From: Cyanobacteria bacterium SZAS LIN-3 | Lineage (GTDB): Bacteria; Cyanobacteriota; Vampirovibrionia; Obscuribacterales; Obscuribacteraceae | Length of the DNA: 64,000 nucleotides | Direction of reading: 5' to 3' | Assembly (NCBI GenBank): GCA_018266215.1 | Contig: JAFEAV010000025.1 | Coordinates: 1-64,000, forward strand | Program-made: the position numbers and the translations under genes | In this document: in pieces, positions 32,017 through 34,548 of the stretch | Layout of the letters: every line of letters starts with the position of its first letter | Position numbering within the stretch: position 1 is the first letter of the stretch | Notes under the pieces: model-generated | What the model was told of the DNA's origin: nothing | Seen by the model: only the letters and a program-made list of their open reading frames with translations | The model's database searches: none

Positions 32017-32046
32017 TTGACGCCGAGTCGTCGATGGCATTAGCAT
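32017..32046 (+). promoter_or_regulatory. Candidate promoter of the Asp-tRNA synthetase leader
   Basis: TTGACG at 32017-32022 matches five of six bases of a -35 box, and TAGCAT at 32041-32046 matches four of six of a -10 box with an 18-base spacer. Transcription would start near 32053, before the Asn-rich open frame. This is a pattern match only. Confidence 0.4.
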
Positions 32047-32095
32047 GAAGAAACGACGCATCGAATACGTTCGCCCACCAACGGCCCGCATCTAT

Positions 32096-32179
32096 ATGTA
32101 TAACTTCCAAACAGACGCCAATAATAATAACAATAATGATTACCCAACTCCGTTGCGGTACCGGCCTCTGTTTGCGTAA
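32096..32179 (+). CDS. Asn-rich leader peptide of the Asp-tRNA(Asn) synthetase attenuator
   Basis: A 27-codon open frame, ATG 32096 to TAA 32177-32179. Codons 9-14 are AAT AAT AAT AAC AAT AAT: six consecutive Asn codons, followed by GAT (Asp). With codon 3 there are seven Asn in 27 residues. An in-frame upstream ATG at 32045 would lengthen it to 44 codons, but the best promoter match puts the transcript start after that ATG. No strong Shine-Dalgarno is visible for either start, which is a weakness. Codons 19-22 overlap the segment 32152-32159 (GTTGCGGT) that can pair with the 5' arm of the downstream terminator. This is the geometry of a trp- or pheST-type ribosome-mediated attenuator. Confidence 0.72.
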   Translation: MYNFQTDANNNNNNDYPTPLRYRPLFA

Positions 32180-32213
32180 ACAATAAACGACGTAAGTAGT
32201 AACCGACCGCAAC
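32152..32213 (+). promoter_or_regulatory. Predicted antiterminator pairing
   Basis: GTTGCGGT at 32152-32159 is exactly complementary to ACCGCAAC at 32206-32213, the 5' arm of the terminator. This 8-bp pairing excludes the terminator. A ribosome waiting at the Asn codons (32120-32137) would leave 32152-32159 free, while one reaching the stop at 32179 would cover it. A possible protector stem (32079-32084 with 32150-32155) could form when the leader is not translated. Confidence 0.65.
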
Positions 32214-32235
32214 AAGAGTTGCGGTCTTTTTTTTT
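32205..32235 (+). terminator. Attenuator terminator just before the synthetase ribosome-binding site
   Basis: A perfect 9-bp stem (GACCGCAAC 32205-32213 with GTTGCGGTC 32218-32226) has a four-base loop and nine T residues (32227-32235). The T run is directly followed by the GGAG of the synthetase gene (32236-32239). A full-strength terminator inside a leader has no use unless readthrough is regulated. Confidence 0.88.
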
Positions 32236-32245
32236 GGAGTATTTT

Positions 32246-33577
32246 ATGATGGAAACGATTGCTCTGAGCCAGGCGGCCCAATATGTCAGCCAGGTAGTAC
32301 GCATAAAAGGACATCTGCAAGGGATGCGGGACCTTGGTCAGATCATGTTCTTGAACGTGCGCGATCGCGAAGCTTCCATCCAGGTCGTGGTCGAAAATCC
32401 GGAATTACTGGCCAGAGCGCGTGCGCTGGCCCTGGAGACCCCCTGCTTTTTCGAAGGCACGATGCAGACGCGCCTGGGCAAAGCGCAGGCGGCGGCAGCG
32501 CAGGAGCTCGTCCTGACTGCCATTAAGCCACTTTCACCGGTGAGCGAAACCTGCCCTGTGGAAATAGGCAAGCAATCCAAGATCGACGGCCTCTCCCCGC
32601 AGACCCTGCTGGACTACAGGCCCCTGACCCTGCGCAATGAGAAGGTGCGGGCCATTTTCAAGATTGAAGCTGAAATAGTCAAAGCCTTCCGCCAGTATCT
32701 GGACGAACAGGGTTTTACCGAAATTCATTCGTCAAAACTGGTCTCCACAGGCACCGAGGGCGGTGCCCAGCTCTTTGCCGTCGACTATTTTGGTCGGCAG
32801 GCTTACCTGGCGCAAAGCCCACAGTTTTACAAGCAAATCATGGTGGGTGCTTTCGAGCGGGTCTACGAAGTCGGCCCCGTGTACCGGGCGGAAGAGCACG
32901 ACACAACCAGACACCTGAACGAGTATATAAGCCTCGACTTCGAGATGGGATTTATCCAGAGCGAGCAGGATGTTATCCGCATGCAAATTGGCTTGCTGCG
33001 CCACATTTTCAGCGAAGTGGCGGAGCGCTGCGCTAAAGAGTTTGCCCTCTACGGCATCACTTTGCCCAAAATCGAAACGATAGCGCAGATAACTCTTGAG
33101 GAAGCGCGCTCTCTTCTGACTGAGAGGTACCGCTGGCAACCCGAGCCCACGGTGCAGGATCTGGACGGTGAGGGCGAAAGACTCCTCTGCGCGCACTTCG
33201 AAAAAAACGAAGGGCTCTCCATGGTCTACGTGACGAACTACCCGCACAAGATCCGGCCGTTTTACGCCATGCCCGCTTCGCAGGAAACCGGCAGTGCTGT
33301 GCTGGGCTCGAAGAGTTTCGACTTGCTCTACGGCGGTCTGGAGATAACGACAGGCGGTCAACGCATTCACGAATACGCCAAACTGACGCAGTCAATGCAG
33401 AGCAGAGGTCTCAATCCTGAGGACTTCGGCGACTATTTGATGGCCTTCAAACACGGCCTGCCGCCCCATGGCGGACTGGCCATAGGCCTGGAGCGCCTGG
33501 CCAAGCAGATGCTGAAACTGCCCTCGGTAAAACAGACGGCACTGTTTCCGCGGGACATCAATCGCCTGACGCCCTAG
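32246..33577 (+). CDS. aspS: Aspartate--tRNA(Asp/Asn) ligase, archaeal-type (probably non-discriminating)
   Basis: A 443-residue class IIb synthetase. The start ATG at 32246 has GGAG six bases upstream; the frame upstream of it runs through the terminator. The N-terminal OB-fold anticodon-binding domain (about residues 12-100; VVRIKGHLQGMRDLGQIMFLNVRD) is followed by the catalytic core. Motif 2 FERVYEVGPVYRAEEHDTTRHLNEYISLDFEMGF and motif 3 GGLAIGLERLAKQML match archaeal-type AspRS, not the longer bacterial AspRS with a GAD insertion and not AsnRS. In bacteria this type usually charges both tRNA(Asp) and tRNA(Asn), the latter product being amidated by GatCAB. The Asn-codon leader upstream supports a tRNA(Asn) role. 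Confidence 0.92.
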   Translation: MMETIALSQAAQYVSQVVRIKGHLQGMRDLGQIMFLNVRDREASIQVVVENPELLARARALALETPCFFEGTMQTRLGKAQAAAAQELVLTAIKPLSPVSETCPVEIGKQSKIDGLSPQTLLDYRPLTLRNEKVRAIFKIEAEIVKAFRQYLDEQGFTEIHSSKLVSTGTEGGAQLFAVDYFGRQAYLAQSPQFYKQIMVGAFERVYEVGPVYRAEEHDTTRHLNEYISLDFEMGFIQSEQDVIRMQIGLLRHIFSEVAERCAKEFALYGITLPKIETIAQITLEEARSLLTERYRWQPEPTVQDLDGEGERLLCAHFEKNEGLSMVYVTNYPHKIRPFYAMPASQETGSAVLGSKSFDLLYGGLEITTGGQRIHEYAKLTQSMQSRGLNPEDFGDYLMAFKHGLPPHGGLAIGLERLAKQMLKLPSVKQTALFPRDINRLTP

Positions 33578-33600: not shown

Positions 33601-33631
33601 TATTGACTGAGCCTCTATATTGACTGAGCCT
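33601..33631 (+). repeat. Two direct copies of a 14-bp unit
   Basis: TATTGACTGAGCCT occurs at 33601-33614 and again at 33618-33631 in the short gap between the convergent synthetase and ATP-grasp genes. The second copy touches the stop codon of the minus-strand gene. Probably a small tandem duplication. Confidence 0.8.
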
Positions 33632-34548
33632 TAATCAAGCACGGAAGCGATCGCCGCGGCGAAACGCTCGCCGGCTTGAGGGGCGGCCATGGCCAGAAAT
33701 AATGAGGGTTCAATCAATTCCAACTCGAGCAGTGTCAGTTGCCCGTTTTCATCCGGCACGACATCGACGCGGGCATATAAGGGCATTTTGCACTGACGCA
33801 TTGTCAGCAATTTGCTCAGGACCATCCGGCCAAAAGCGATTTCAGCATCGCTGGCCGTAGCCGCGGTCTCGCCGGCCTCGCCGGCGGCAGCCTGCTTTTG
33901 AAAAGCTGATTTGCGAACGGCGTGGGAAAACTCACCATTGATGAAAACCAGGGCGCGCTCACCATACTTTTCAACCGCCGTCAGAAATGGCTGAATCAAA
34001 ATATCACTTGACTGCGCCAGCTTTTGAATGTGGTTGGATATTTCCTGGAGAGAATCATCAACCGATATCGGTTTGAATTTTTTGACACCATACGTGCTCA
34101 AGCCCACGGTGGGCTTAACTATGATCTGCTCGCAGCCGTCAATTTCCGGGCGTTTCAAGATTTCGGCCAGCTGCGAAACAGTCAAAGTTTCGGCGGCGGA
34201 TCTTTCTATATGTACGCTTGGCACAATCGGCACACCGGCACTTGCCAACGCTAACAGATATCGCTTGTCCGAATTCCAGCGCACCAGTTCACTGTCATTG
34301 AGAAGCTTTGTGCGCTTTCCAACCGACTCAACCCAATCAAGAAATTCGCTGTAATAGTGGTGGTAGTCCCAGGTAGAACGCAGCAATACCAGGCGGCTGT
34401 CAAGCGCACCAGCAGCAACTCTTCGCCAGTCGACAACGGCGACATTGAGGCCGCGATCGGCCAGCAATTTCAGCGCCAACAAATCATCGGGGTCCCCATC
34501 GGGCAAACCACTATAAGTAGCGAAAACTACGTCTAGACCAGGTTTCAA
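33631..34548 (-). CDS. ATP-grasp domain protein (DcsG/RimK-like)
   Basis: A 305-residue protein with the ATP-grasp architecture. The pre-ATP-grasp domain (residues 1-95) includes LLRSTWDYHHYYSEFLDWVE, a sequence typical of the DcsG/glutathione-synthetase-like subgroup. The nucleotide-binding part follows (EQIIVKPTVGLSTYGVKKF with its ATP-binding Lys, about residues 145-165; DILIQPFLTAVEKYGERALVFINGEFSHAVRK), and the Mg-binding end is LYARVDVVPDENGQLTLLELELIEPSLFL. These enzymes ligate an amine to a carboxylate at the cost of ATP; the substrate is unknown. The gene stands alone on the minus strand and carries one perfect 14-bp palindrome (34060-34073). Confidence 0.83.
   Translation of the reverse strand: MKPGLDVVFATYSGLPDGDPDDLLALKLLADRGLNVAVVDWRRVAAGALDSRLVLLRSTWDYHHYYSEFLDWVESVGKRTKLLNDSELVRWNSDKRYLLALASAGVPIVPSVHIERSAAETLTVSQLAEILKRPEIDGCEQIIVKPTVGLSTYGVKKFKPISVDDSLQEISNHIQKLAQSSDILIQPFLTAVEKYGERALVFINGEFSHAVRKSAFQKQAAAGEAGETAATASDAEIAFGRMVLSKLLTMRQCKMPLYARVDVVPDENGQLTLLELELIEPSLFLAMAAPQAGERFAAAIASVLD
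34060..34073. repeat. 14-bp palindrome AACCGATATCGGTT inside the ATP-grasp gene
   Basis: Perfect copy of the iterated palindrome, encoding Lys-Pro-Ile-Ser-Val on the minus strand. It is the only full-length copy in the right half of the window. Confidence 0.9.

Follow-up and report, generated by a model that had tools for sequence, protein, structure and literature searches.

An archaeal-type aspartyl-tRNA synthetase (AspRS2; 443 aa) is encoded at positions 32246–33577 of the window, which is the whole 64,000-nucleotide stretch of DNA analyzed here. Its gene is preceded by an element at 32096–32235 that, judging from sequence comparison, is very probably a ribosome-mediated transcription attenuator of AspRS2. 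All features described below lie on the forward strand unless stated otherwise. A leader-peptide transcription attenuator for this synthetase had been proposed in the first-pass annotation, and the core of that proposal was supported by 41 related loci. The parts of the attenuator are conserved, and its antiterminator (helix 2:3) and terminator (helix 3:4) both covary among relatives.

The leader peptide ORF comprises 27 codons (MYNFQTDANNNNNNDYPTPLRYRPLFA; 32096–32179) and runs from ATG 32096, at which the nearest relatives also have an aligned ATG, to TAA 32177–32179. It contains a regulatory run of six Asn codons (AAT AAT AAT AAC AAT AAT, 32120–32137) and one Asp codon (GAT, 32138–32140), so that the Asn-rich frame described earlier, with six Asn codons and then Asp, was confirmed base by base. 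The ORF called mechanically in the same frame opens earlier, at ATG 32045. This start was ruled out because it overlaps the predicted −10 hexamer TAGCAT (32041–32046), and 32096 is therefore the likely leader start; the presence of a stop codon immediately 5' of the aligned leader ATG in the relative L033 also favors it. No obvious Shine-Dalgarno sequence for the leader ORF was seen in the window sequence. The predicted promoter is TTGACG-18-TAGCAT (32017–32046), with a transcript start near 32053, and a promoter-like pair TTGAC(N)-17/18-TANNNT was found 5' of the run in the leaders of 38 of the 41 relatives. The 6.77 Mb genome contains the pattern AAYAAYAAYAAYRAY at five sites only. When 240-nt windows on both strands of the whole 64 kb window were used as a chance control, the best ten-codon stretch held eight Asn/Asp codons in the leader vs. 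at most six elsewhere.

An intrinsic terminator lies between the leader ORF and AspRS2. Its perfect 9-bp stem (32205–32226, GACCGCAAC-AAGA-GTTGCGGTC) is composed of segment 3 (32205–32213), which is also the 3' strand of the antiterminator, and segment 4 (32218–32226), and is followed by a U tract of nine T (32227–32235), the Shine-Dalgarno sequence GGAG of AspRS2 directly after the T run (32236–32239), and its ATG at 32246. The 5' strand of the antiterminator, segment 2 (GTTGCGGT, 32152–32159), is located inside the leader ORF and is perfectly complementary to ACCGCAAC (32206–32213). This arrangement of complementary segment, terminator, T run, and Shine-Dalgarno sequence was as the first-pass annotation had described it. 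The fold energies were −22.7 kcal/mol for helix 2:3 and −14.8 kcal/mol for helix 3:4, and the antiterminator stretch 32148–32220 folded with z = −4.1, with none of 200 shuffles as good. A possible protector arm (segment 1, 32141–32148) was tentatively assigned, as it pairs with 32152–32160 (local fold −6.1 kcal/mol). The resulting protector hairpin (32141–32160) can be seen in the window, and many relatives have hairpins like it, but the permutation test across relatives was not significant (2818/20,000), and the hairpin was dropped as a demonstrated part.

Forty-one AspRS2 loci from genomes of the order Obscuribacterales were compared, 29 of which are non-redundant (<85% leader identity). All 41 share one order of parts: an Asn/Asp run in frame, a stop codon 6–42 nt after the run, a U-tracted terminator 21–43 nt after the stop, and then the AspRS2 gene. 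The run, the complementary segment, and the terminator thus persist while the rest of the leader drifts, as the first-pass annotation had predicted. Over the first eight codons of the run, 84% were Asn or Asp codons in frame vs. 0% in the two other frames. The run is not a simple repeat because all four codons are used (AAT 105, AAC 39, GAT 40, and GAC 36). Each of the 41 runs includes one to five Asp codons, Asp codons outnumber Asn codons in four leaders, and the Asn:Asp mix ranges from 8:2 to 1:4. At 49 AspRS2 loci outside the order, the leaders held one to four Asn/Asp codons per ten, with two exceptions.

Of 53 genomes of the order searched with a covariance model of the leader (R1), 41 gave exactly one match each, and all 30 matches inspected were directly upstream of AspRS2. 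Among the 12 genomes with no match, no AspRS2 ortholog was found in eight, G009 has a divergent leader copy at E 0.006, G025 has a different AspRS2, and G108 and G120 were outside the inspection. No leader copies beyond AspRS2 were detected by R1 in the 53 genomes, and no Asn/Asp run with a terminator was found upstream of asnS, aspS1, asnB, gatA, or gatB; a regulon wider than AspRS2 was accordingly rejected.

Pairing was evaluated in a structure alignment of 29 rows, one per non-redundant leader, whose shared descent causes the following figures to overstate independence: 96.9% of the cells of helix 3:4 were paired (slid controls, 27–51%), with 35 cells changed on both sides and such changes in six of the nine pairs, and 81.9% of the cells of helix 2:3 were paired (slid controls, 28–47%). 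Segment 2 paired more strongly with the terminator arm of the same leader than with the arms of other leaders (means of −18.8 vs. −14.6 kcal/mol; 0/20,000 permutations). The antiterminator was weak in a few leaders (L031, L036, L013, and L055). AAT repeats and terminators each occur on their own, and it could be argued that such a repeat and the ordinary terminator of the upstream gene merely happen to precede AspRS2. This coincidence is hardly conceivable, as the run is kept in frame with mixed synonymous codons, the terminator covaries with a segment of the leader, the leader is separated from the upstream gene by a promoter of its own, and the element occurs as a single copy per genome, always before AspRS2.

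Folding was also simulated for different states of the ribosome and of the transcript. With a stalled ribosome and before synthesis of arm 4, segments 2 and 3 paired in all 29 leaders; with no ribosome and arm 4 absent, they also paired in 26 of 29. At equilibrium, the terminator was favored in most leaders whatever the state of the ribosome, and equilibrium energies were thus not decisive as proof of switching. Because equilibrium folding alone predicts no switch, the attenuator has to work kinetically, as known attenuators do.

For the geometry of the ribosome, a typical footprint length was assumed, with the leading edge 13 nt past the first nucleotide of the codon in the A site. With this footprint, segment 2 stays free whichever of the seven Asn/Asp codons in the window causes the stall, and the same applies to most Asn/Asp codons in 29 of 29 leaders. 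The stop codon follows the end of segment 2 by about 16 nt in relatives and 17 nt in the window, so a terminating ribosome would occupy the loop that separates segments 2 and 3. It had been claimed earlier that the ribosome at the stop codon covers segment 2; the segment is instead placed at its trailing edge, with the ribosome between the two antiterminator strands.

From these features, we infer how leader translation, stalling, termination, and its reversal would be coupled. RNA polymerase would start near 32053, and a ribosome would translate the leader. A shortage of Asn-tRNA(Asn) or Asp-tRNA(Asp) would stall the ribosome within the Asn/Asp run, and even on the last codon of the run the leading edge of the ribosome would end before 32152. 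The free segment 2 (32152–32159) would then pair with segment 3 (32206–32213), the terminator would not form, and AspRS2 would be transcribed. With adequate charging, the ribosome would reach the stop codon at 32177, between segments 2 and 3, leaving segment 3 to pair with segment 4, and transcription would end in the T run. AspRS2 would thereby serve as an inducible source of Asp-tRNA(Asp) and, if it is non-discriminating, also of Asp-tRNA(Asn) for amidation by GatCAB.

As every run has Asp codons besides Asn codons, the sensor would read both tRNAs. The leader had been described as a sensor of Asn-tRNA(Asn); Asn was retained as a signal, while Asn alone was not. Sensing of both Asn-tRNA and Asp-tRNA is the simplest interpretation and suits an enzyme able to supply Asp-tRNA(Asp) and, together with GatCAB, Asn-tRNA(Asn). 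A leader-peptide attenuator could also respond to a stall signal other than tRNA charging, such as missing queuosine, which is usually carried by the tRNAs for Asn and Asp codons (NAY), or destabilization of the ribosome by the nascent chain, which has been described for other leaders. The latter would be expected to involve Asp runs after the start codon, and the Chloroflexota-type leaders L103, L104, and L141 do start with such runs; neutral Asn codons, however, equal or outnumber Asp codons in 37 of the 41 runs. With regard to queuosine, no enrichment of codons for His and Tyr, the other queuosine codons, was visible by eye in the leaders. Moreover, the regulated gene itself encodes an enzyme that makes Asp-tRNA, and a tRNA-charging signal is therefore predicted. 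Both non-charging signals are improbable on these grounds.

The AspRS2 protein scored above the cut-offs of the aspartate--tRNA(Asn) ligase profiles NF003483 (505.8 bits, cut-off 353) and TIGR00458 (387 bits, cut-off 368.4) and below those of the AsnRS and bacterial AspRS profiles, and its best PDB match was 1n9w, the AspRS-2 of T. thermophilus. The genome, an Obscuribacterales MAG, also encodes AsnRS, a bacterial-type AspRS (639-codon frame), and asparagine synthetase B, and GatB and GatA genes were found in a search that covered gatB and gatA. Its tRNA(Asn) has the U1-A72 pair, which is required by the amidotransferase (PMC9976931). As AsnRS, the bacterial AspRS, GatCAB, and AsnB are all encoded here without such a leader, AspRS2 gives the impression of a second enzyme that can be induced.

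Judged by family, AspRS2 is likely non-discriminating. The other reading is that the attenuator is real and AspRS2 is discriminating, charging tRNA(Asp) only, with the Asn codons sensing the shared supply of Asp and Asn (nitrogen). It concerns the purpose of the attenuator and would leave the attenuation mechanism itself intact. A His and a Pro in the anticodon-binding domain are, we assume, the determinants of a non-discriminating AspRS; at the position of the T. thermophilus AspRS-2 His, the 41 AspRS2 have Q in 23, H in 10, and Y in 5 cases in an ambiguous loop alignment, and APGG of the anticodon-binding loop (window 32246–32560) is lost in Obscuribacterales and kept in most other bacterial AspRS2. 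These losses may mean an altered tRNA specificity, and a discriminating enzyme would also fit a genome whose AsnRS has no such leader. Conversely, the sequence scores above the cut-off that NCBIfam sets for the non-discriminating family, GatA, GatB, and a U1-A72 tRNA(Asn) are encoded in the genome, most runs are dominated by Asn codons, and the loop alignment to which the assumed residue rule is applied is ambiguous. We consider a discriminating AspRS2 possible and rather unlikely. The earlier argument that codon identity argues for charging of tRNA(Asn) is weaker than stated, given the AsnRS in the genome and the loss of the assumed determinant residues. The codon content of the leaders yields a prediction for the tRNA specificity of AspRS2. 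The absence of gatB in some genomes was rejected as counter-evidence to transamidation; the missing genes are likely assembly gaps because gatA is present in G002, G005, G013, and G023.

Two side observations concern other genes. asnB and gatA are about 14 kb apart on one contig (G000:C140), and their distance is 7–10 kb in several relatives (e.g., G008, G021, and G023). On the reverse strand of the window, 33631–34548 encodes a protein that resembles the D-cycloserine synthetase family (193.5 bits, cut-off 360) and is probably an ATP-grasp ligase.

A T-box or other Rfam element was rejected as the sensor in the window. Neither T-box RF00230 nor another Rfam element matched the window by the same method that detects T-boxes in L078, L103, and L236, no model of the known Rfam amino-acid leader families matched it, and the T-box core TGGNACC is absent from all 41 leaders. 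The AspRS2 genes of Clostridia and Chloroflexota, in turn, have T-boxes or T-box cores, and in the Caldilineales loci L103/L131, L140, and L141, a T-box is followed in tandem by an Asp/Asn-rich leader ORF. A tree of 73 AspRS2 proteins groups those with Obscuribacterales leaders in a single clade (100/99), separate from the others; a minimum of two changes is required for the leader label. One gene thus appears with exchanged sensors: a T-box in Clostridia and Chloroflexota, a leader peptide in Obscuribacterales, and both in tandem in some Caldilineales.

Several features of these loci were noted. The AspRS2 T-box specifier of Caldilineales (Chloroflexota) appears to read GAC (Asp), and the tandem ORFs open MDDDNDDNN... 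and MPDDDDDDNDD... (T-box and ORF of L103 at 2504–2780 and 2829–2888). A hairpin with no U tract abuts the AspRS Shine-Dalgarno sequence in L103, which suggests a second, translational layer. L104 has the leader MDDNDDDVRRRLL (372–413) alone, with no T-box match in the flank examined; its CCTCTTGT complements ACAAGAGG at the AspRS Shine-Dalgarno sequence, which suggests translational attenuation. G025, from the same family as the window genome, has a different archaeal-type AspRS (43% identical) with no leader peptide and a T-box-like RNA before it (L236 433–624; 40.4 bits, below the Rfam gathering score).

We lean slightly toward the view that the leader peptide gauges Asn- and Asp-tRNA at once because its enzyme supplies both, and that this solution arose at least twice (Obscuribacterales and Chloroflexota). 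If so, the leader would parallel the two-codon T-box, with a ribosome as the reader, and the Asn:Asp mix of each leader might report the tRNA specificity of its AspRS2. The findings also suggest an inducible reserve as the reason for a second AspRS beside AsnRS, AspRS1, GatCAB, and AsnB.

The trp, his, and pheST leaders of proteobacteria are ribosome-mediated attenuators. Such attenuators were also described for trpS and leuS of Streptomyces (PMC1262725), and the hisS paralogues of bacilli have His leaders (PMC2965389). No Asn or Asp leader peptide was found in Rfam or in the part of the literature covered. The aspS gene of Shewanella is listed with a 'tRNA synthetase leader' in PMC2659441; there, too, a 5' regulatory RNA that includes a terminator is predicted ahead of an AspRS gene, but no Asn/Asp peptide is described in the passages covered. 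For C. acetobutylicum, PMC4206432 cites tRNA-dependent amidation (Saad 2012) and a two-codon T-box (Saad 2013); one T-box of this species reportedly binds two tRNAs. The T-boxes of AspRS2 share with the element in the window the pathway, a tRNA-charging sensor, and control by a terminator, whereas sensing in the window would be performed by a translating ribosome. With the known ribosome-mediated attenuators, it shares a leader ORF with a regulatory codon run, mutually exclusive antiterminator and terminator, and a synthetase gene directly 3'. The type of mechanism is thus classical, while the Asn/Asp sensor, the double codon set, and the bacterial group appear undescribed. Unlike the known cases, the present leader has Asn and Asp codons, precedes an archaeal-type AspRS in Cyanobacteriota (Obscuribacterales), and has its segment 2 within the ORF, with about 16 nt between this segment and the stop codon; with order-wide comparative support, it would add Asn and Asp codons, as well as non-photosynthetic Cyanobacteriota, to the known range of ribosome-mediated attenuation.
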